Positions 25,135 to 33,969 of a stretch of 64,000 bases of DNA are shown here, one piece after another. The number at the start of each line of letters is the position of its first letter. Position 1 is the first letter of the stretch. The notes beneath the pieces were generated by a model. It searched no databases and was not told where the DNA came from. It saw nothing but the letters and a program-made list of their open reading frames with translations. The DNA is from Aequorivita soesokkakensis (lineage in GTDB: Bacteria > Bacteroidota > Bacteroidia > Flavobacteriales > Flavobacteriaceae), in the NCBI RefSeq assembly GCF_001641085.1, contig NZ_LXIE01000001.1, positions 372,001 to 436,000 of the forward strand, read 5' to 3'. The position numbers and the translations under genes were made by a program.

Positions 25135-25572
25135 CTATTCAAAAATTTTATCCTTGGTTATTGCAAATTGTTCAACGAACGTTATCTGCTCTGCCCCTTT
25201 GTTTAAATTTTCGGAAAGAAGCATCATTGCTTTTTTACTCTTTTCAAAAGCTGCCAAAGCTTCCTTCTCCTCTTGTGTGTAATGTGGTTGTGAAAAATAA
25301 AAACTTCCCACACCGAAAGCCACTACAAGCATTGCCGCAACAGAATACCACCAAGTTTTATTGGTTTTTGATTTACGTTCCGGCAAATTAAATTCTCTGC
25401 TGGAGTGCTCTTCTTTAGCCACTTGAAAGCCTGCAAACATTGAGGTGTATTGCTCTAAATGTTCCGCAACATTATTACTGTTGAAATAGTCCCGCAACAA
25501 TTTTTCTTCCGCTAAACTGGTATTACCTTCAAAATAGGCTTCCAGTAATTTTTCTATTTTAACTGATTCCAT
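25135..25572 (-). CDS. anti-sigma-like single-pass membrane protein
   Basis: 145 residues. The N-terminal part (KIEKLLEAYFEGNTSLAEEK) is the short cytoplasmic helix pattern seen in Bacteroidota anti-sigma and sigma-linked proteins. One membrane helix lies at about 75-93 (WWYSVAAMLVVAFGVGSFYF), followed by a short periplasmic tail. It overlaps the sigma gene by 14 bases, which indicates coupled translation and supports a regulatory partner role. It lacks a canonical zinc anti-sigma HxxxCxxC motif. Confidence 0.75.
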   Translation of the reverse strand: MESVKIEKLLEAYFEGNTSLAEEKLLRDYFNSNNVAEHLEQYTSMFAGFQVAKEEHSSREFNLPERKSKTNKTWWYSVAAMLVVAFGVGSFYFSQPHYTQEEKEALAAFEKSKKAMMLLSENLNKGAEQITFVEQFAITKDKIFE

Positions 25573-26065
25573 AATTGTATTTTTTTATCATTTCGTCCCT
25601 AACTGTTTTGCGGGCGCGGGAAAGCGCCACTCTAATTGCCGTTTCGTTACTCTCCAGCATTTTTGCGATTTCTGAAAACTCAAATTGTTCCACATCCCGC
25701 AATTGAAGCACTAGTTTCTGTTGCTCGGGCAAGGTTTCCATTATTTGGAAAACCAGTTCAACCCCATCATTCGCTTCAATATTTCTTTCAATATTTTCTG
25801 AAGTTTGATAATTGCTGTGCACAATTTTCAAATTTGAAGCCTGTTTTGATTTTAATCGATCCAAGCAATAATTTTTGGTCATTGTAATGGCAAACGCTTC
25901 AGGGCTTTTATAATTTTCAATCTGTTGCTTTCCTTTCCATAGTTTCATAAAAATTTCCTGCACTGCATCCTCGGCTTCGTCCTTGGAAACCAAAATTCTC
26001 TTGGCCAAACGATATAGCTTATCCTTGAGCGGCATTACTATAGTTATAAATTCGTTTCTGTCCAT
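25559..26065 (-). CDS. ECF-type RNA polymerase sigma factor
   Basis: 168 residues with region 2 (YRLAKRILVSKDEAEDAVQE with the DAVQEIF -10-recognition helix) and region 4 (LPEQQKLVLQLRDVEQFEFS, then EIAKMLESNETAIRVALSRARK). No additional domains. It presumably transcribes its own operon: a candidate ECF promoter lies just upstream. Downstream, in order, are the anti-sigma-like gene and two DUF4252 genes. Confidence 0.93.
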   Translation of the reverse strand: MDRNEFITIVMPLKDKLYRLAKRILVSKDEAEDAVQEIFMKLWKGKQQIENYKSPEAFAITMTKNYCLDRLKSKQASNLKIVHSNYQTSENIERNIEANDGVELVFQIMETLPEQQKLVLQLRDVEQFEFSEIAKMLESNETAIRVALSRARKTVRDEMIKKYNYGIS

Positions 26066-26099
26066 TTGGTTTTGGTTGTGTTTTTGGCCTTCTAATTTA

Positions 26100-26127
26100 A
26101 TGACGAATCGCGCCCATTTTTGTTACA
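26100..26127 (-). promoter_or_regulatory. candidate autoregulated ECF promoter
   Basis: On the minus strand TGTAACA and CGTCAT are separated by 15 bases. This matches the GTAAC / CGTC pattern typical of ECF-dependent promoters and differs from the TTTG/TAnnTTTG housekeeping type. It lies about 35 bases before the sigma factor ATG. The match is read by eye only. Confidence 0.6.
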
Positions 26128-26263
26128 ATGAAATGTTTTCCTATTAATAAATGAAGGTATGATGCAAAGTATCAGATTAATTTCGACTAAAAAACATATT
26201 TTTACAACTGCAATATAATCCCTAATTTATCTGTTTTAAAGAATCCCTTAATAAAACCTTTTT

Positions 26264-27664
26264 ATGAAACGAAAAATTTTCATCCCTTTTTTGATTGTTT
26301 CTGCCCTATTTGTTTCCTGTTTTGAAGATGCGGACGACAACCTTCAGCCCGCCGCTACTATTGACATTCAAAACTTTATTTATCGCGGCTTGAATTATTT
26401 TTACCTTTATAAAGCTGATACGCCGGAGCTTGCCAACGACGCTTTTGCTGGCCAGGATGAACTAAATGCCTTTTTGGATAATTATGATTCTCCCGAAACT
26501 TTATTCGATTATCTAAAATCGCCACAAGATCGTTTCAGTAATCTTTACAGCGATTATACCTTAATTGAAAACGCTTTGAGCGGAATAACACTGAGCAACG
26601 GAATGGAGTTTGGTTTGGTGTATTATCCGGATGGAAGCGGAAATGTTTTTGGTTACGTCCGTTATGTTTTGCCAAATACCGATGCGCAAACGCAAGGTTT
26701 AAAACGTGGGGATCTTTTCACGACCATAAATGGGCAACAGATAAACGAAAACAATTACAATGATTTGCTGGCGCCAAATAGCTATACCATTGGTCTTGCA
26801 ACTTATAACGGTACGGATTTTACGTCCACAGGTATAACAGCTACCCTTAATAAAACCCAATACAACGAAAACCCCGTTTATAAGGCACAGACGCTGGAGA
26901 TTAATGGCGAAAAAATAGGTTATTTAATGTACAATGGTTTTATTAGAGATTATGATGCAGAGTTAAACAATGCTTTTGCACAATTTAAATCAGACGGGGT
27001 AAATAGCCTTGTCTTGGATCTTAGATATAATGGCGGAGGCTCCGTGGAAACCGCAACAGACCTTGCCAGTATGATTACGGGGCAATTTAACGGGCAGGTT
27101 TTTTACAAAGAATTCTGGAATGAAGATAGGCAGCCCGAATATGCCGAAAACGGCGTTTTTGACAACTCTATCAGCAACGGAAACGCAACGAATAGTTTAA
27201 ATCTTTCTAAAGTATATATACTTACCACAAGAAGAACAGCTTCTGCCAGTGAATTGGTTTTAAACGGACTGAGACCCTATATAGATGCCGTACAGGTTGG
27301 AGATACAACTACGGGAAAATTCCAAGCGTCTTTCTTGCTTTATGATGCACCTGCGCCACAATTCAGTAGAAATGAGGCAAATCCCAATCATACCTATGTA
27401 ATGCTTCCTTTGGTCTTTAAAACTGCGAATGCTGCTGGAAATACAAATTATAATGACGGACTCTTTCCGCAGATTCCTATGCAGGAAGATTATTTCAATC
27501 TTGGGCAATTGGGCGATGCCAACGAACCGTTTTTGGCAGCTGCTTTAAATGAGATTTTACCCAGGCCATTACCTGTTCGCCGTGATTTTAGACCTTTAAA
27601 GGAAATTTCAAACAGTAAGGCAAATTCTCCTTTGTATGAGAAAATGATTGGTGAAAAGAAATAA
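26264..27664 (+). CDS. S41 family (C-terminal processing) peptidase, lipoprotein
   Basis: 466 residues. Lipobox FVSC gives a lipidated Cys19. A PDZ-like region lies at about 115-195 (VLPNTDAQTQGLKRGDLFTT is its ligand-binding loop). The S41 catalytic part follows with LVLDLRYNGGGS (249-260) and TTRRTASASEL (321-331), where the nucleophile serine lies in the TASASE run. It should act in the periplasm or at the cell surface on unknown substrates. Monocistronic, with its own terminator. Confidence 0.92.
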   Translation: MKRKIFIPFLIVSALFVSCFEDADDNLQPAATIDIQNFIYRGLNYFYLYKADTPELANDAFAGQDELNAFLDNYDSPETLFDYLKSPQDRFSNLYSDYTLIENALSGITLSNGMEFGLVYYPDGSGNVFGYVRYVLPNTDAQTQGLKRGDLFTTINGQQINENNYNDLLAPNSYTIGLATYNGTDFTSTGITATLNKTQYNENPVYKAQTLEINGEKIGYLMYNGFIRDYDAELNNAFAQFKSDGVNSLVLDLRYNGGGSVETATDLASMITGQFNGQVFYKEFWNEDRQPEYAENGVFDNSISNGNATNSLNLSKVYILTTRRTASASELVLNGLRPYIDAVQVGDTTTGKFQASFLLYDAPAPQFSRNEANPNHTYVMLPLVFKTANAAGNTNYNDGLFPQIPMQEDYFNLGQLGDANEPFLAAALNEILPRPLPVRRDFRPLKEISNSKANSPLYEKMIGEKK

Positions 27665-27736: not shown

Positions 27737-28795
27737 CTAATCGTTGAAGTAAATCCCACCGGGAATTATCCCCGTTTGAAATTCCTGAATTTGTTGATTG
27801 GTTGAAAGGTCAAATATTTTCAAACTTCCGTTGCTCGCAAAATCGCCTGCATCAGTTGCATAAAGTTTTCCGTTATGTGCTTCAAGGGCATAAAAGAATC
27901 CGTTGATAATTTCAGCACCGGGCAAGCTTACTGAAGCGCTATTAACTTTATAAACCTTCCCGTCTAGATTATAATATAGATTTGCCCCATCTATTGTCAA
28001 ACCAGTTGGATGCTGGGTAATAGCCAAATTATATGTATTTGAAACCTGTCCATTTGAAAGATCAATTTTAACAAGCGAACCTGCAGTTTCATTACCCGTA
28101 TAGCTAGGATTTCCACCGCACAAAACGAATAATGAATTTCCAGAAACCACCATTGAGTTTGGAACATCGCCTACGTTTATAGTGCTTTCAACAGTATTTC
28201 CGGAAATAACAGAAATCAAATTATTCTGTCCGAAACCGCCTTGATGGGCAACGTAAATTTTATTACCGTTGGAAACCATTTTTTCAGGACCGAAAGATAC
28301 TGGAATTGTTGCTGAAACAGCATTACTGCGCAAATCTACCACCGAAACAAAATCGTCTGTGTTATCATTTGGATCACCCCAATTGGTAACATACCCCTTA
28401 TTATTATCCGTTCCCAAAAAATATCTCGGGTTATTGATTCCGGTTTTAATTGAATCCACACTTTCAAAACTGTAGCGATTTACAATTTCAATTTTTTGCG
28501 AATTGTTTACAACGATGTATGCATTTTCATCCTGAAAATTCATAGACTGAACTATGTTGCCCAAATCCTTTCCGTTTACGGTTAAAAAAATATGTTGCTG
28601 TACATCGGTAAAGTCTTCCGAAATAAAAGTAACATTCCCAGTTCCTGCACCAAAAGGGCCTTCATTGGTTACAAAAATACCTTTTTCATAAGCCTCCGGT
28701 GGGTTTGGGCCCGGTTGTGGATCATCGTCATTGCTACAGGATATAAACAGCACTGTTGCAAAAGTTAAGAACAATAGTTTTTTCATCGTTTTCAT
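27737..28795 (-). CDS. BtuG-like surface lipoprotein, beta-propeller (DUF5074/YncE type)
   Basis: 352 residues. Signal with lipobox FISC then a Ser/Asp/Pro-rich linker (CSNDDDPQPGPNPPEAYEKG), the usual sign of export to the cell surface. The rest is a propeller of repeated strands (VSVVDLRSNAVSATIPV, LISVISGNTVESTINVGDVP and so on). BtuG of Bacteroides is a surface propeller lipoprotein that captures B12 and sits on BtuB; the same gene order is present here (4 bases after btuB, both behind the cobalamin riboswitch). Function by analogy and context; sequence identity to BtuG cannot be measured here. Confidence 0.78.
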   Translation of the reverse strand: MKTMKKLLFLTFATVLFISCSNDDDPQPGPNPPEAYEKGIFVTNEGPFGAGTGNVTFISEDFTDVQQHIFLTVNGKDLGNIVQSMNFQDENAYIVVNNSQKIEIVNRYSFESVDSIKTGINNPRYFLGTDNNKGYVTNWGDPNDNTDDFVSVVDLRSNAVSATIPVSFGPEKMVSNGNKIYVAHQGGFGQNNLISVISGNTVESTINVGDVPNSMVVSGNSLFVLCGGNPSYTGNETAGSLVKIDLSNGQVSNTYNLAITQHPTGLTIDGANLYYNLDGKVYKVNSASVSLPGAEIINGFFYALEAHNGKLYATDAGDFASNGSLKIFDLSTNQQIQEFQTGIIPGGIYFND

Positions 28796-28799
28796 TTGT

Positions 28800-30632
28800 T
28801 TAAATATTAAATTTTAAGAATAATTGTAGGTTTCGGGAAGGCATTGGCCGGTAGGCAACGTTTTCATAATAAACATCAAAAACGTTTTTAAGCCTTGCTC
28901 CCAAAGTTATTTGTGGGTTTGAGCGAAAGGTAAATTCTGAACCCAAGTTGAAAATTTTATATGCCTTCACTGCGTTGGAATTATCTGTTGTAGTATATAT
29001 CCCTCCATTATAAAGTCCTTGTAAATAGACCATTAGGGTTTTAAAATCATACTGAAATGTTCCCGTAGCTTTATGAAAAGGAACATAAATAAGCTGCTTC
29101 TCCTTTTCCAAATCCTCTGCTTTGGTGTATGAATAGTTTGCAGTAAAGCCAAGTGTATGTTGGGAAAATATTTTTACAGAATAACCTACAACCACTTCCG
29201 CACCGTAATTTCTGGTTTTGTTGATGTTTACGGGCTCCCAAATTCCACCACTTCCGGGAATCCATTTTATTAAGTCTTCGGAAGAAATATAATACGTCGC
29301 AATATCTGCCTTCAGTTTTCCAAATGAAAATTCCTGACCAAGTTCCAATTGATAGGAGGTTTCGGGCTGTAAAGCAATATTTCCACCCGCATACCAATAC
29401 AAATCATTAAATGTGGGAACGCGATAATTTTTTGAACCATTCAGTCGAAGTTCATAATTTTTTGAAACGCTCCACTTCACATCCGCGGAAAAAAGGAATG
29501 GGTTGTCAAAATCATTCAAAAATTCCTTTCTGAAATTAATTCCATAACTAAATGCCGCAGAAATTTTATGGTTCAGCAACACAACGGCAGCCAATGTTTT
29601 TCGTGAATTTTTCCCCACATTATCACCTTTGGCAGTTATGTAACTATATTCCATCTTTCCATTTATGCGAAGTTTTTTCCGAAGAAAAATTTCAGTCTGC
29701 AAGGCGCCTATAAATGTATTTGCCCTGCCTTGATCAAAAAGTGGTTTTTCACTATCCGGAAAATATCTGTATTGTTCAAAAAGATGTGCCACGCTTGCTT
29801 TTGTGTCAAAAACACCTATTTTTTGTTGCAATTGCCAAAGGTTTCGAGTTGCAACATCTTTATATCCGTCCTTCCCAATTGTATTTAAACTGCCAGAAAA
29901 ATTGCGGTCGTTATAGGTGTATTCCGAATTCCAGGTAGCCACGCCACGCTTCAACCTTCTCGCTTCATTTACAGTTGCGGCAAAACGTAAAAACTGTCCG
30001 TGATTGTTTTTTCTATTCTTTCCCACAAAATCATAATCATTTTCAGAACTCACAAAATTAACGCCCAAACTTAAGTAATGATCACCCCAAGTTTGTGTGG
30101 TACTGGCATTCCCTCCTACAGTTGAAAAGCTTCCGTAATTAAGTGAAACTTGCGTAGAATCAATTTTTTTAAAAGAATAGGAATTGTTTAAATGAATACT
30201 TCCACCGACGGCTCCACTGCCATATTGCACGCCACCACCGCCACTTCTTATTGAAATTTCATTGTAATTAAAAGGTGAAATGGTGTTAAAATCCGTTTGC
30301 CCGGTAAAAATAGAATTGATGTTTATTCCGTTCCAAATCACCGCCGTTTGAGCAGCATTTGTTCCCCGGAAGCTAGGCGAAGAAACCATCCCGAAACCAT
30401 TTTCCTTAAAATAAATTGAAGAATTATAACGAAGTGTTTCTGTTAACGAGCTTGCATTTCTTTCAATAATGGAATCGCTCAGTTTTTCAAGTTTAAATCC
30501 TTTTGAAAAATGCACGAGTTTTGAGTCTGTCAACATCACTTCCGGTAACTGCTGAATACTGTCCAATTGAGCAAAAACAGAAGTAGTGCACAGAAAAAAA
30601 ATAAAAATAATATGGAAACCGTTTTGCTTCAT
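28800..30632 (-). CDS. btuB: TonB-dependent outer-membrane receptor, BtuB-like (vitamin B12)
   Basis: 610 residues. Signal peptide ending near VFAQLD, a plug domain with a TonB-box-like start (LPEVMLTDSKL) and the conserved plug stretch ISIRSGGGGVQYGSGAVGGS (about 129-148), then a 22-strand-type barrel ending in LFLKFNI with the terminal aromatic pattern. Substrate is assigned from context: a cobalamin riboswitch lies directly upstream, a BtuG-like gene follows and btuFCD is divergent. The family call is certain, the B12 substrate very likely. Confidence 0.92.
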   Translation of the reverse strand: MKQNGFHIIFIFFLCTTSVFAQLDSIQQLPEVMLTDSKLVHFSKGFKLEKLSDSIIERNASSLTETLRYNSSIYFKENGFGMVSSPSFRGTNAAQTAVIWNGININSIFTGQTDFNTISPFNYNEISIRSGGGGVQYGSGAVGGSIHLNNSYSFKKIDSTQVSLNYGSFSTVGGNASTTQTWGDHYLSLGVNFVSSENDYDFVGKNRKNNHGQFLRFAATVNEARRLKRGVATWNSEYTYNDRNFSGSLNTIGKDGYKDVATRNLWQLQQKIGVFDTKASVAHLFEQYRYFPDSEKPLFDQGRANTFIGALQTEIFLRKKLRINGKMEYSYITAKGDNVGKNSRKTLAAVVLLNHKISAAFSYGINFRKEFLNDFDNPFLFSADVKWSVSKNYELRLNGSKNYRVPTFNDLYWYAGGNIALQPETSYQLELGQEFSFGKLKADIATYYISSEDLIKWIPGSGGIWEPVNINKTRNYGAEVVVGYSVKIFSQHTLGFTANYSYTKAEDLEKEKQLIYVPFHKATGTFQYDFKTLMVYLQGLYNGGIYTTTDNSNAVKAYKIFNLGSEFTFRSNPQITLGARLKNVFDVYYENVAYRPMPSRNLQLFLKFNI

Positions 30633-30671
30633 AATTCAACCTTTATCCCGAAAGTTTGATGATTTTATGTT

Positions 30672-30908
30672 ATGAATCTGGCAGGTCTCCTGGCTTGTCT
30701 TTTGTGCCACCTTCCCATCCGCAAAAGCGAACAGTGGTTTTGAAGTATGCACGCCCGAAAATTTTCGGGACGACTTACAGTTGCGGGAACAGCATAGGAT
30801 TTATGATTTTATATTTACGATTGCTGATTTTCAGATTTCAACAAATAAATTCATTCTCATGTACCTATTTCCCTTTTAAGAGCATTTTTATTTTGAAAAT
30901 TGCTCACC
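30672..30908 (-). ncRNA. cobalamin (B12) riboswitch
   Basis: On the minus strand the parts of the cobalamin riboswitch appear in order: AAAAGGGAAATAGGT, then TTCCCGCAACTGTAA, the CCACTG core, GGATGGGAAGGTGGC, and the B12 box AGCCAGGAGACCTGCC (30680-30695). This is the only content of the 340-base gap between btuB and btuF apart from promoters. It ends about 40 bases before the btuB ATG, so it can control btuB and btuG-like expression by blocking translation initiation or by early termination. An ORF of 90 codons on the opposite strand is a shadow. Confidence 0.95.
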
Positions 30909-30919
30909 AAAATTCCTTG

Positions 30920-30952
30920 CAAAAATAGACTTTAAAAATTAGTTCGCCCAAA
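30920..30952 (-). promoter_or_regulatory. promoter of the btuB riboswitch transcript
   Basis: Minus strand TTTG (30949-30952), 21 bases, TATTTTTG (30920-30927). This matches the Bacteroidota consensus and places the transcript start just before the riboswitch. Confidence 0.75.
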
Positions 30953-30972
30953 CAAAACCATTATTTTTGGGG

Positions 30973-32118
30973 ATGCAAAAAATTGTTTTCTTCTTTAGTT
31001 TCTTCATCATTTTTACGGCGTGCAAAAACAACGGTGACACTATTAAAACTAAAAAAAGTGAAAATCCAAAACGGAAAATGATTGATATAAAATATGCCGA
31101 AGGCTTTGAAATCGAGGATTTAGGAGATCTAAAAATAATAACCTTAAAAAACCCGTGGCCAGGAACTGAAAAAACCTTTAAATATGGTATTGTTAACGAA
31201 GGCGTTATATTAGACTATCTCGGCGCGCTTGATGCTGTTGTACAAAAACCTATCAAAAAAATTGTTGTTACCTCCACAACCCATATTCCCTCTTTGGAAA
31301 TGTTGGGTGAAGCAGAACGTTTGGTCGGTTTTCCCAACCTCGATTATATTTCTTCAGAAAAAACAAGACAGCTAATTTCTGATGGAAAAATAACCGAGCT
31401 CGGCAAAAACGAAGATATAAATACTGAAATTTTAATAGATTTAGCGCCAGATGCAGTAATTGGTTTTGCTATAGATGGAAACAATTCAACCTTCGCGACT
31501 ATTGAAAAAACGGGTATTCCCGTGCTTTATAATTCAGACTGGACAGAAACTTCCCCTTTGGGAAAAGCGGAATGGATAAAATTTTTTGGTGTACTATTCA
31601 ACAAAGAGAAAGAGGCAGACAGCATTTTCAAAACAATTGAAACCGAATACCTTTCAGCAAAAAAACTTGCTTCCGAAGCAAAGGAAACACCCACTGTTAT
31701 TAGTGGCGCAATGTATAAAGATGTTTGGTATTTGCCACAGGGAGACAGTTGGGGCGCACAGTTTATAGCAGACGCTAATGGCGATTACCTTTGGAAAGAT
31801 TCAAAAGGCACTGGCGGTTTATCATTAAGTTTGGAGTCAGTTTTGGATAAAGGCCACGACGCCGAAGTTTGGATTGGTCCGGGACAATTTACTACTTTGG
31901 AAGAAATGAAAAACGCAAATAATGCTTACACACAATTTGCTGCTTTTAAAACGAACAATGTATATTCCTATAGTTTAAAAAAAGGCAAAACCGGTGGTGT
32001 AATCTATTTTGAATTGGCACCAAACAGACCGGATCTGGTTTTAAAGGATTTGATTAAAATTCTACATCCCGAATTATTAACCGAACACGAACTTTATTTT
32101 TTTGATAAACTGAAATAA
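30973..32118 (+). CDS. btuF: BtuF-like ABC transporter substrate-binding lipoprotein (B12)
   Basis: 381 residues from the ATG at 30973, giving MQKIVFFFSFFIIFTAC with lipidated Cys17; the frame also opens at a TTG two codons earlier. A class III (BtuF/FhuD/PeuA) periplasmic-binding fold is indicated by KKIVVTSTTHIPSLEMLG, then LIDLAPDAVIGFA and IEKTGIPVLYNSDWTE, and the closing ELAPNRPDLVLKDLIKILHP. It should deliver B12 to the permease BtuC. Overlaps btuC by one base (TAATG). The substrate assignment rests on the divergent riboswitch-controlled receptor. Confidence 0.88.
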   Translation: MQKIVFFFSFFIIFTACKNNGDTIKTKKSENPKRKMIDIKYAEGFEIEDLGDLKIITLKNPWPGTEKTFKYGIVNEGVILDYLGALDAVVQKPIKKIVVTSTTHIPSLEMLGEAERLVGFPNLDYISSEKTRQLISDGKITELGKNEDINTEILIDLAPDAVIGFAIDGNNSTFATIEKTGIPVLYNSDWTETSPLGKAEWIKFFGVLFNKEKEADSIFKTIETEYLSAKKLASEAKETPTVISGAMYKDVWYLPQGDSWGAQFIADANGDYLWKDSKGTGGLSLSLESVLDKGHDAEVWIGPGQFTTLEEMKNANNAYTQFAAFKTNNVYSYSLKKGKTGGVIYFELAPNRPDLVLKDLIKILHPELLTEHELYFFDKLK

Positions 32119-33149
32119 TGCAAGCCGCAAAAACATACAAGCTTCAATTCGCAGCACTTTTTGTGGTGCTAATTGTTGCTTTTTTGGTGAATTTGAGTAT
32201 GGGTTCGGTTTCAATTCCTTTAAAGGAAATAATTTCGGTTTTTACCGGGAATGGCGCATCCAAAGAAACGTGGCAGTACATTTTAATGGATTATAGACTG
32301 CCCAAAGCAATTACCGCAATGCTTGCGGGCGGCGGCTTGGCAATTTCAGGTTTACTGATGCAGACCCTTTTTAGAAATCCATTGGCGGGACCTTTTGTTT
32401 TGGGACTTAGCAGTGGTGCGAGTTTGGGAGTGGCAATTTTAATTTTGGGTGCCAGTGCTTTCGGTGGATTTTTCGGAACAATTCTGTTAAGCCAATGGAG
32501 TTTGGTCATAGCCTCGGCCTTGGGAAGTTTTTTGGTGCTGCTGGCAGTTTTGGCAGTAACTTTCAGAATAAAGGACACCATGGCAATCTTGATAATCGGA
32601 CTGATGTTCGGCAGCGTTACGACGGCCGTTGTCTCGGTTCTTTCCTATTTCAGCAACGCGGAACAATTGCAACAATACATCTTTTGGTCCTTCGGAAGTT
32701 TAGGAAACCAATCGTGGCAAGGCGTTTTGATTTTAATCCTCTGTTTTATGGTCGGTTTGGCGCTGAGTGTTTTCAGCAGTAAATCTTTAAACGCACTATT
32801 GTTGGGCGAAAACTATGCTAAAAGCATGGGGCTTCACATAAAACGAACCACATTAATAATAATTCTCGCCACCAGCATACTTGCGGGAAGTATAACAGCC
32901 TTTGTGGGGCCAATCGCTTTTATAGGTTTGGCGGTGCCGCATTTGGTACGCCAGGTTTTTAAAACCTCCAACCATTTAATTTTGCTTCCCGCGGTATTAC
33001 TTTGCGGCAGTTTGTTGATGCTAATTTGCGATACTGTGGCACAATTGCCTTTCAGTGAATTTACATTGCCAATTAACGCAATCACTTCATTAATTGGGGC
33101 TCCAGTTGTAATTTGGTTATTGGTAAGAAAACGAAAACTCTTCTTTTAA
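32118..33149 (+). CDS. btuC: BtuC-like FecCD-family ABC transporter permease
   Basis: 343 residues with about ten hydrophobic helices, normal for FecCD permeases. The family markers are the DYRLPKAITAMLAGGGLAIS entry loop, NPLAGPFVLGLSSGASLG, and GPIAFIGLAVPHLVRQVF, the coupling helix that contacts the ATPase. It forms the inner-membrane pore of the B12 importer. ATG overlaps the btuF stop, and its stop overlaps the btuD start. Confidence 0.92.
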   Translation: MQAAKTYKLQFAALFVVLIVAFLVNLSMGSVSIPLKEIISVFTGNGASKETWQYILMDYRLPKAITAMLAGGGLAISGLLMQTLFRNPLAGPFVLGLSSGASLGVAILILGASAFGGFFGTILLSQWSLVIASALGSFLVLLAVLAVTFRIKDTMAILIIGLMFGSVTTAVVSVLSYFSNAEQLQQYIFWSFGSLGNQSWQGVLILILCFMVGLALSVFSSKSLNALLLGENYAKSMGLHIKRTTLIIILATSILAGSITAFVGPIAFIGLAVPHLVRQVFKTSNHLILLPAVLLCGSLLMLICDTVAQLPFSEFTLPINAITSLIGAPVVIWLLVRKRKLFF

Positions 33150-33943
33150 TGGCTTTGGAAGAAAAACATATCATTCTGCAAACGCATAATCTGAGCGTAG
33201 GCTATTCAAAAAAAGGAAGTGATTCCATCATTGCGGAAGGAATTGATTTTTCTATTGAAAAAGGTGAACTGGTTGGAGTTGTTGGCGCGAATGGTATTGG
33301 AAAATCAACCCTTTTAAGAACTTTGACGGGAATGCAAAACGCTTTAAAAGGGTCAATTTTTTTAAACGGAAAAAGTTTAAACGAATATTCCTCCTTTCAG
33401 CTTGCAACACAGTTGAGCGTGGTTTTGACCGAAGCGCCCGCTTCTAAAAATCTTTCAGTTTTGGAAATGATTTCATTGGGAAGACAGCCCTATACAAATT
33501 GGATGGATTCACTTTCCGAAATAGATAAAAAGGCAATAAATTTCGCTTTGGAAGCTACGGAAACCACAGCACTTACCCACCGAAAATGTTATGAATTGAG
33601 CGATGGCCAAATGCAGCGCGTTGCTATTGCACGCGCATTGGCACAAGACACACCGTTAATTATTCTCGATGAACCCACAACACATTTGGATTTATATCAT
33701 CGCGCCTACGTTTTGAAACTTTTGAAAAACCTTGCGAAGGAAACAGGGAAAACCATACTTTTTTCAACCCACGAAATAGATTTGGCAATTCAGCTTACCG
33801 ACAAAATGTTGGTAATGGCAAAAGACGGAACCTATATTGATGCTCCCTGCAAATTGATTGAAGATGGACGGTTTGAAGCACTTTTCCCGAAAGAAACCAT
33901 AGATTTTGATTCAAAGACCGGAAGGTTTACCATTCGGAAATAA
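33149..33943 (+). CDS. btuD: BtuD-like ABC transporter ATP-binding protein
   Basis: 264 residues from the ATG at 33149, which overlaps the btuC stop (TAATG). The longer frame from 33113 would run into btuC. Walker A GANGIGKST, signature ELSDGQMQRVAIARAL (with D in place of the first G of LSGGQ), Walker B PLIILDEPTTHLD and the switch His in FSTHEID are all present. Energises uptake by BtuFC. Third gene of the btuFCD operon. Confidence 0.92.
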   Translation: MALEEKHIILQTHNLSVGYSKKGSDSIIAEGIDFSIEKGELVGVVGANGIGKSTLLRTLTGMQNALKGSIFLNGKSLNEYSSFQLATQLSVVLTEAPASKNLSVLEMISLGRQPYTNWMDSLSEIDKKAINFALEATETTALTHRKCYELSDGQMQRVAIARALAQDTPLIILDEPTTHLDLYHRAYVLKLLKNLAKETGKTILFSTHEIDLAIQLTDKMLVMAKDGTYIDAPCKLIEDGRFEALFPKETIDFDSKTGRFTIRK

Positions 33944-33969
33944 GTATATTTACTTTAAAATTCATTGTG

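Follow-up and report, generated by a model that had tools for sequence, protein, structure and literature searches.

A probable lidded, BtuBG-type vitamin B12 import locus with a riboswitch on one arm in the marine genus Aequorivita

The closest described counterparts of the locus reported here are the BtuB2G2 and BtuB3G3 systems of Bacteroides thetaiotaomicron (B. theta), in which the lipoprotein BtuG serves as a lid on the transporter BtuB. In the B. theta apo complex, the tip of extracellular loop 8 (EL8) of BtuB fills the BtuG pocket, and replacement of this tip abolished growth on vitamin B12; each of the three B. theta BtuBs is described as having an aromatic residue at the position of Tyr538 in BtuB3, and Trp194 and Trp272 of BtuG2 narrow the upper-ligand pocket (PMC10404256). 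In a survey of 313 gut strains, BtuG was reported in Bacteroidetes only (PMC6143338), and crowding and competition in the gut have been suggested as the reason for the lid (PMC6143338, PMC10404256). The present analysis concerns the B12 locus between positions 27,737 and 33,943 of a 64,000-nucleotide (nt) stretch of Aequorivita soesokkakensis DNA (contig NZ_LXIE01000001.1, positions 372,001 to 436,000 of the forward strand), termed the window, from a genome of 3.19 Mb.

This locus is very probably a complete B12 import system of the lidded BtuBG type, with a riboswitch on the btuBG arm and a separate btuFCD arm. A preliminary description, drawn from the sequence alone, had proposed a complete set of B12 genes with btuB and a BtuG-like propeller lipoprotein behind a cobalamin riboswitch; btuG, btuB, btuF, btuC, and btuD were all confirmed at their coordinates, and the covariance model RF00174 placed the riboswitch in the btuB leader (Table 1). 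Whole-genome searches returned a single BtuB match and a single BtuG match. The start of rmuC lies 24 nt past btuD (33943-33967), and rmuC follows btuD in related loci with enough flanking sequence, so that btuFCD and rmuC may form one transcript. No further B12-binding protein was recognised among the seven neighbours scanned.

Table 1. Features of the B12 locus, with window positions, and type IX tailed BtuG-like proteins of other loci, with positions in the locus named.
Feature	Position	Strand	Remarks
btuG	27737..28795	-	surface lipoprotein, 352 amino acids, beta-propeller (DUF5074), Cys20 lipobox followed by SNDDD
btuB	28800..30632	-	TonB-dependent transporter, 610 amino acids, lid-type BtuB
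EL8 motif WIPGSGGIWEPVN in btuB	29226..29264	-	residues 457-469; DNA coordinates derived from residue numbers
Expression-platform hairpin AACTTT(CGGGATA)AAGGTT	30638..30656	-	ends 5 nt ahead of the btuB start codon
Cobalamin riboswitch aptamer RF00174	30663..30926	-	covariance model, 79 bits
Loop L5, CCCG	30784..30787	-	complementary to CGGG of the hairpin loop; putative kissing-loop pairing
btuB -7 box TATTTTTG	30920..30927	-	TTG at 30949-30951, 21 nt upstream; predicted transcription start about 30915
btuF -7 box TATTTTTG	30962..30969	+	3 nt ahead of ATG; leaderless mRNA predicted
btuF	30973..32118	+	periplasmic binding protein; first ATG used, mechanical open reading frame from TTG 30967
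btuC	32118..33149	+	FecCD-type permease
btuD	33149..33943	+	ATP-binding cassette ATPase; start ATG 33149, mechanical open reading frame from TTG 33113
Type IX tailed BtuG-like	L124:5765-7057		
Type IX tailed BtuG-like	L139:8511-9851		
Type IX tailed BtuG-like	L144:9009-10430		
Type IX tailed BtuG-like	L148:8892-10238		
Type IX tailed BtuG-like	L174:6228-7460		
Type IX tailed BtuG-like	L175:3051-4361		

The aptamer scored far above the RF00174 gathering score of 31.5 bits (E 8.4e-18). No second cobalamin element was detected on either strand between 25000 and 36500 in a permissive scan (E<=1), and a whole-genome riboswitch search found no cobalamin riboswitch beyond the btuB one. The CCCG of loop L5 could pair with the CGGG of the hairpin loop next to the btuB start codon, a contact that is presumably the kissing loop of cobalamin riboswitches (the L5-L13 scheme). 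Of 31 riboswitches examined, 25 have a hairpin with a CGGG loop (13/13 in the genus and 12/18 outside it), whereas 200 letter shuffles gave 1.6 on average and at most 6 of 31; the stems of the hairpin differ between loci (for example, AACTTT/AAGGTT versus TTGTCTCT/AGGGACAG); the six riboswitches without such a hairpin by the rule used count against this pairing scheme. Because a search for terminator-like sites on the minus strand gave none from the aptamer to the btuB start codon, control of btuBG most likely operates at translation. For the cobalamin riboswitches of B. theta, premature termination has been proposed (PMC12751083). The btuB promoter is of the Bacteroidota type (TTG-21-TATTTTTG); a sigma-70 promoter scan, which is not suited to Bacteroidota promoters, returned 16 sites against a shuffle mean of 17.7.

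The btuFCD genes had been described as divergent and free of a riboswitch on their own strand, and neither the local scan nor the genome search gave reason to revise this. A missed second riboswitch ahead of btuF was considered and excluded by the permissive scan, the genome search, and the short predicted leaders. In Flavobacterium psychrophilum, the promoter box TAnnTTTG lies at -12 to -5, and leaderless mRNAs constitute 5.5% of those mapped (PMC9723704). Since the btuF box ends so close to the ATG, this spacing predicts a transcription start within about 1 base of the start codon, and the btuF mRNA would thus be leaderless. When the 60 nt ahead of each start were scanned, a box was found 3-42 nt upstream of btuF in 21 of 21 loci, at 3-4 nt in 12 of them, whereas 500 letter shuffles gave a mean of 0.57 and a maximum of 4 of 21 loci; in the window, btuF is the only one of 48 mechanical frames of at least 150 amino acids with such a box. 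In all 21 loci, the predicted btuF leaders are too short to accommodate a riboswitch, which takes up about 190 nt.

This one-sided arrangement looks like the usual one among related loci and no oddity of the window. Among related loci, btuF or btuC lay within reach in 42; the arm was divergent from btuB in 39 of these (including two loci counted twice), at a distance of 284 bp to 6.3 kb, and none of the 39 showed a B12-box pattern ahead of the btuF arm, the pattern being a crude one that also missed any riboswitch ahead of btuB in 2/39. The pattern did occur ahead of the btuF arm in a same-strand classical locus (L186). In one metagenome-assembled genome (L051), the btuF reading frame appears broken, through either assembly error or decay.

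The preliminary description had suggested that the two arms may be regulated differently, and steadier expression of btuFCD would fit these predicted leaders. Alternatively, btuFCD could be repressed by B12 without a riboswitch, through a regulator or through coupling of the overlapping promoters, which is judged unlikely and yet is the strongest of the competing explanations. Operon 4 of B. theta (btuF2C2D2), in which no riboswitch was found, was nonetheless reported as repressed by cobamides, including B12, in reporters (PMC12751083), a result that speaks against steady expression, and the predicted btuB and btuF transcription starts of the window lie just about 59 bp apart, with intervening sequence that is conserved in short-spacer loci. 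Against such repression, B. theta BtuF2 and BtuD2 were unchanged in proteomics (PMC12751083), the btuF strand carries no cobalamin element, and in each of the 21 loci scanned the boxes predict a leader too short to hold one.

The identity of the lipoprotein, which the preliminary description had called BtuG-like on the strength of its sequence, was evaluated by structure comparison, and the fold agreed with BtuG, as did sequence and context. Searches with phmmer gave E-values of 2.9e-25 to BtuG3 (8p97_B), 1.4e-23 to BtuG2 (8bmx_D), and 1.3e-7 to BtuG1. The structure model (predicted local distance difference test, pLDDT, 91.8; built from 43 aligned sequences) found its best match in BtuG2 (8bai; Z 40.3, 1.8 A over 304 residues), and the top 11 rows of the structural ranking were all BtuG1, BtuG2, BtuG3, or the BtuG homologue 3dsm (Z 36.8-40.3), ahead of the first non-BtuG row, an archaeal surface-layer propeller (1l0q, Z 32.4). 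By inspection, the lipobox FISC20 is followed by SNDDD, an acidic export signal, and the mature protein is acidic (15 K+R versus 35 D+E), in line with the negatively charged face of BtuG2 (PMC10404256). By sequence, predicted fold, lipobox with acidic export signal, and context, the lipoprotein is thus a BtuG relative.

Two observations weigh against this assignment: identity to the solved BtuGs is about 25%, and Trp194, Tyr239, and Trp272 of BtuG2 align to Gln185, Asn229, and His262. Tyr316 is kept (Tyr302), and Tyr335 is conservatively replaced by Phe319 in the alignment. Pocket positions other than these two are highly variable across 43 BtuG-like proteins, in which the Trp194 column is gapped in 17/43 and the Trp272 position holds His in 16/43. 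A generic YncE or quinoprotein propeller was ruled out by sequence, fold rank, and context. More broadly, it is very improbable that the lipoprotein is some other propeller, YncE-like or BtuK-like, that is merely linked to B12 genes and provides no lid: models of YncE and pyrroloquinoline quinone-type repeats also match it weakly, BtuK1, a distinct B12-binding propeller, is structurally close to the model (Z 28.6), and the two pocket tryptophans are lost, but BtuG entries lead by a clear margin in both structure and sequence, and the protein partners a BtuB of the EL8-carrying type.

That partner matches BtuB3 and BtuB2 at about 4e-40, and its EL8 aligns without gaps to that of BtuB3, placing W465 at the Tyr538 position. 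To compare BtuBs, loci of relatives were combined with loci of Bacteroidota that have or lack a BtuG match; 80 of the loci were chosen by hand, non-randomly, from listed rows. Frames of at least 500 amino acids with a score above 140 were retained (103 passed), and each was assigned to the window type, that is, lid-type, or the classical type according to which of two profiles scored higher. One profile was seeded with the window BtuB and the other with a single lidless BtuB, so that BtuG played no part in defining the types. Loci without a passing BtuB frame were excluded (L053, L115, L116, L117, L125, L131, L149, L155, L168, L172, L188, L200, L201, and L206).

The two types differed cleanly in their pairing with BtuG. 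A btuG gene adjoined 69 of 72 lid-type BtuBs and 0 of 31 classical ones, so that every BtuB with an adjacent BtuG was of the lid type; the 69 rows include two loci counted twice (L113 = L046, L126 = L033). With the 20 main Aequorivita loci removed, the counts were 49/52 and 0/31, the 49 rows still containing two loci of the genus (L114 and L127). Three lid-type rows had no BtuG call: L140, where the genome survey places BtuG just downstream and the frame finder took an overlapping frame; L176; and L191, which lies at a contig end. One frame counted as classical (L170) has a low score (170), lies ahead of the riboswitch, and may be no BtuB. Outside the main Aequorivita loci, the EL8 motif occurred as W.P in 40/49 lid-type BtuBs, as P.N in 39/49, and as [WFY].P.N in 31/49, each form being present in 20/20 main Aequorivita loci and in 0/31 classical BtuBs. 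Reversed gene order, with btuG ahead of a lid-type btuB, was seen in L151, L163, L164, and L189.

Further analyses pointed in the same direction. In a BtuB tree of 85 rows from which EL8 had been removed (two Aequorivita loci plus the window were included and L145 was left out), 54 lid-type and 31 classical proteins were split by one branch with a Shimodaira-Hasegawa-like approximate likelihood ratio test (SH-aLRT) value of 99, by a quick method that flagged long branches. BtuB and BtuG distances correlated over 50 pairs (rho 0.53; 0/2000 permutations as high). Several points tell against so strict a pairing: related loci are non-independent samples, W.P is absent from 9/49 lid-type BtuBs, and three BtuG-adjacent BtuBs (L153, L157, and L174) score almost equally with the classical profile. 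The strict pairing of BtuG with EL8-bearing BtuBs provides evolutionary support for the EL8 ejection mechanism, which has hitherto been tested in B. theta.

On the BtuBG reading, import would proceed as follows. BtuG, held by its lipid on the outer face of the outer membrane, would capture corrinoids and close over BtuB, whose EL8 would push the vitamin from BtuG into the barrel; both B12 binding by BtuG and the lid action are predicted from its resemblance to the B. theta proteins. Energy from TonB would then move B12 to the periplasm, where BtuF, itself a lipoprotein by its lipobox (TAC, judged by eye, without the acidic export signal), would pass it to BtuCD. Once cytosolic B12 is plentiful, it would bind the riboswitch in the btuBG leader, and L5 would kiss the hairpin loop next to the btuB start codon, probably shutting off btuBG at the level of translation. 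The btuFCD arm, with its own back-to-back promoter and almost no leader, would escape riboswitch switching, and its expression is expected to be steadier.

The genome encodes uses for the imported vitamin, including B12-dependent MetH (an 898-amino-acid frame, whose N-terminal part fell outside the search), methylmalonyl-CoA mutase, IcmF (found from a partial frame), and an adenosyltransferase. A genome search for the MetE domain PF01717 gave no match, and as MetH is the only methionine synthase found, the cell would need to import B12. The search for PF07685 (GATase_3, the CobQ/CbiA domain) yielded a single partial match, which lies in a 208-amino-acid frame and is taken as an unrelated amidotransferase; judged from the PF07685 search only, de novo B12 synthesis looks unlikely.

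BtuG is widespread beyond this genome. Of 59 genomes searched (its own counted), 47 gave a BtuG match, including all 28 of the genus Aequorivita, and BtuG-like proteins occurred in 174 of 392 Bacteroidota genomes sampled (44%; 95/179 genera), a lower bound, because four loci chosen by hand as BtuG-less (L174, L175, L189, and L205) proved to carry BtuG once a profile was used. Cobalamin riboswitches were present in 375/392 of these genomes. The expectation that a BtuG-like protein would here extend B12 capture beyond gut Bacteroides therefore stands as regards its presence in Aequorivita and falls as regards a lone extension. No paper on BtuG in Flavobacteriia or on a type IX tailed BtuG was found in the literature, in which coverage of subscription papers was thin, making this weak evidence of absence. 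A plasmid search returned 5 records and no close relative; where an identity was listed, it was 26-28%. The S41 peptidase and extracytoplasmic function (ECF) sigma genes of the window (25559-27664) also adjoin lidless BtuBs in three Flavobacteriaceae (L121, L122, and L123), and these common neighbours suggest replacement in place. Lateral acquisition of the btuBG pair from gut Bacteroides is scarcely credible, for although the pair is not universal (12/59 relatives have no BtuG match, and the three BtuG-less Flavobacteriaceae carry a classical BtuB near the same flanking genes), all the Aequorivita genomes searched have a match, synteny is stable, identity to the B. theta BtuG is low, and BtuB and BtuG have diverged together.

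The anchor of the lid may vary between lineages. Outside the genus, 49 BtuG frames adjacent to BtuB were classified (48 loci): a lipobox was recognised in 35, a type IX sorting tail but no lipobox was recognised in 6, and neither feature was recognised by a crude pattern in 8, several of these showing a lipobox by eye. The tail is above the Pfam cut-off in all six, each locus has a cobalamin riboswitch, and DUF5074 is matched in five, L175 matching the BtuG profile only; the N-termini of the L144 and L174 proteins are uncertain. The broader interpretation is put forward tentatively, with slightly more doubt than confidence: the lid would be old and phylum-wide, would have evolved with the EL8-bearing BtuB clade, and would have an exchangeable anchor, an N-terminal lipid in the majority of lineages, among them that of the window, and a C-terminal type IX tail in others, with the outer arm of Aequorivita switched by B12 and btuFCD unswitched and leaderless. 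If this is true, a lid anchored by a type IX tail would hinge differently from a lipid-anchored one.

Other arrangements were observed among these loci. In two Aequorivita relatives (L115:1248-4058 and L116:7474-10365), a further cobalamin riboswitch precedes a BtuG-like propeller and a partner of 324 amino acids, both with type IX tails, and no BtuB was recognised beside the pair. Relatives of this partner adjoin BtuB or BtuG in L132, L135, L137, and L155; two full-length members scanned showed no Pfam domain apart from the tail, and the structure model of the partner has a pLDDT of 52.8, with the PDB alignment shown and most listed ranges covering the sorting tail. In another genome (G127; L131:5459-6815), btuG comes directly after a riboswitch and 12 kb of sequence contain no recognised BtuB; L125 is similar. 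Between lipid anchor and BtuG propeller, L118:6315-7721 has a Calx-beta domain, and L119:4312-5607 has a stretch that looks immunoglobulin-like by eye.

Both the lidded BtuBG and the one-sided riboswitch arrangement were already known from B. theta, and Aequorivita adds a further example. Like BtuB3G3 and BtuB2G2, its locus places btuB and btuG side by side downstream of a cobalamin riboswitch and encodes an acidic propeller lipoprotein and an EL8 with an aromatic residue (PMC10404256, PMC6143338); it differs in its marine host genus, in a BtuB of 610 rather than about 700 amino acids, and, relative to BtuG2, in the Gln and His found at the pocket positions Trp194 and Trp272. B. theta operons 3 and 4 likewise combine a riboswitched btuB3G3 and a riboswitch-less btuF2C2D2 in one locus, and BtuF2 is also a predicted lipoprotein (PMC12751083), whereas in Aequorivita the two arms diverge from promoters that overlap, and the btuF mRNA is predicted to be leaderless. 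The classical lidless BtuB (TIGR01779) belongs to the same transporter family, is riboswitch-controlled in relatives, and in three cases lies near S41 and ECF sigma genes, but all 31 classical BtuBs lack both an adjacent BtuG and the EL8 motif that mark the Aequorivita protein. Conservation of the lidded system in a marine genus, together with BtuG-like proteins in so many Bacteroidota genomes, argues that the lid can be accounted for without the gut and is not necessarily an adaptation to it. Relatives in which lidded and lidless BtuBs lie near the same flanking genes provide a natural experiment on the purpose of the lid.

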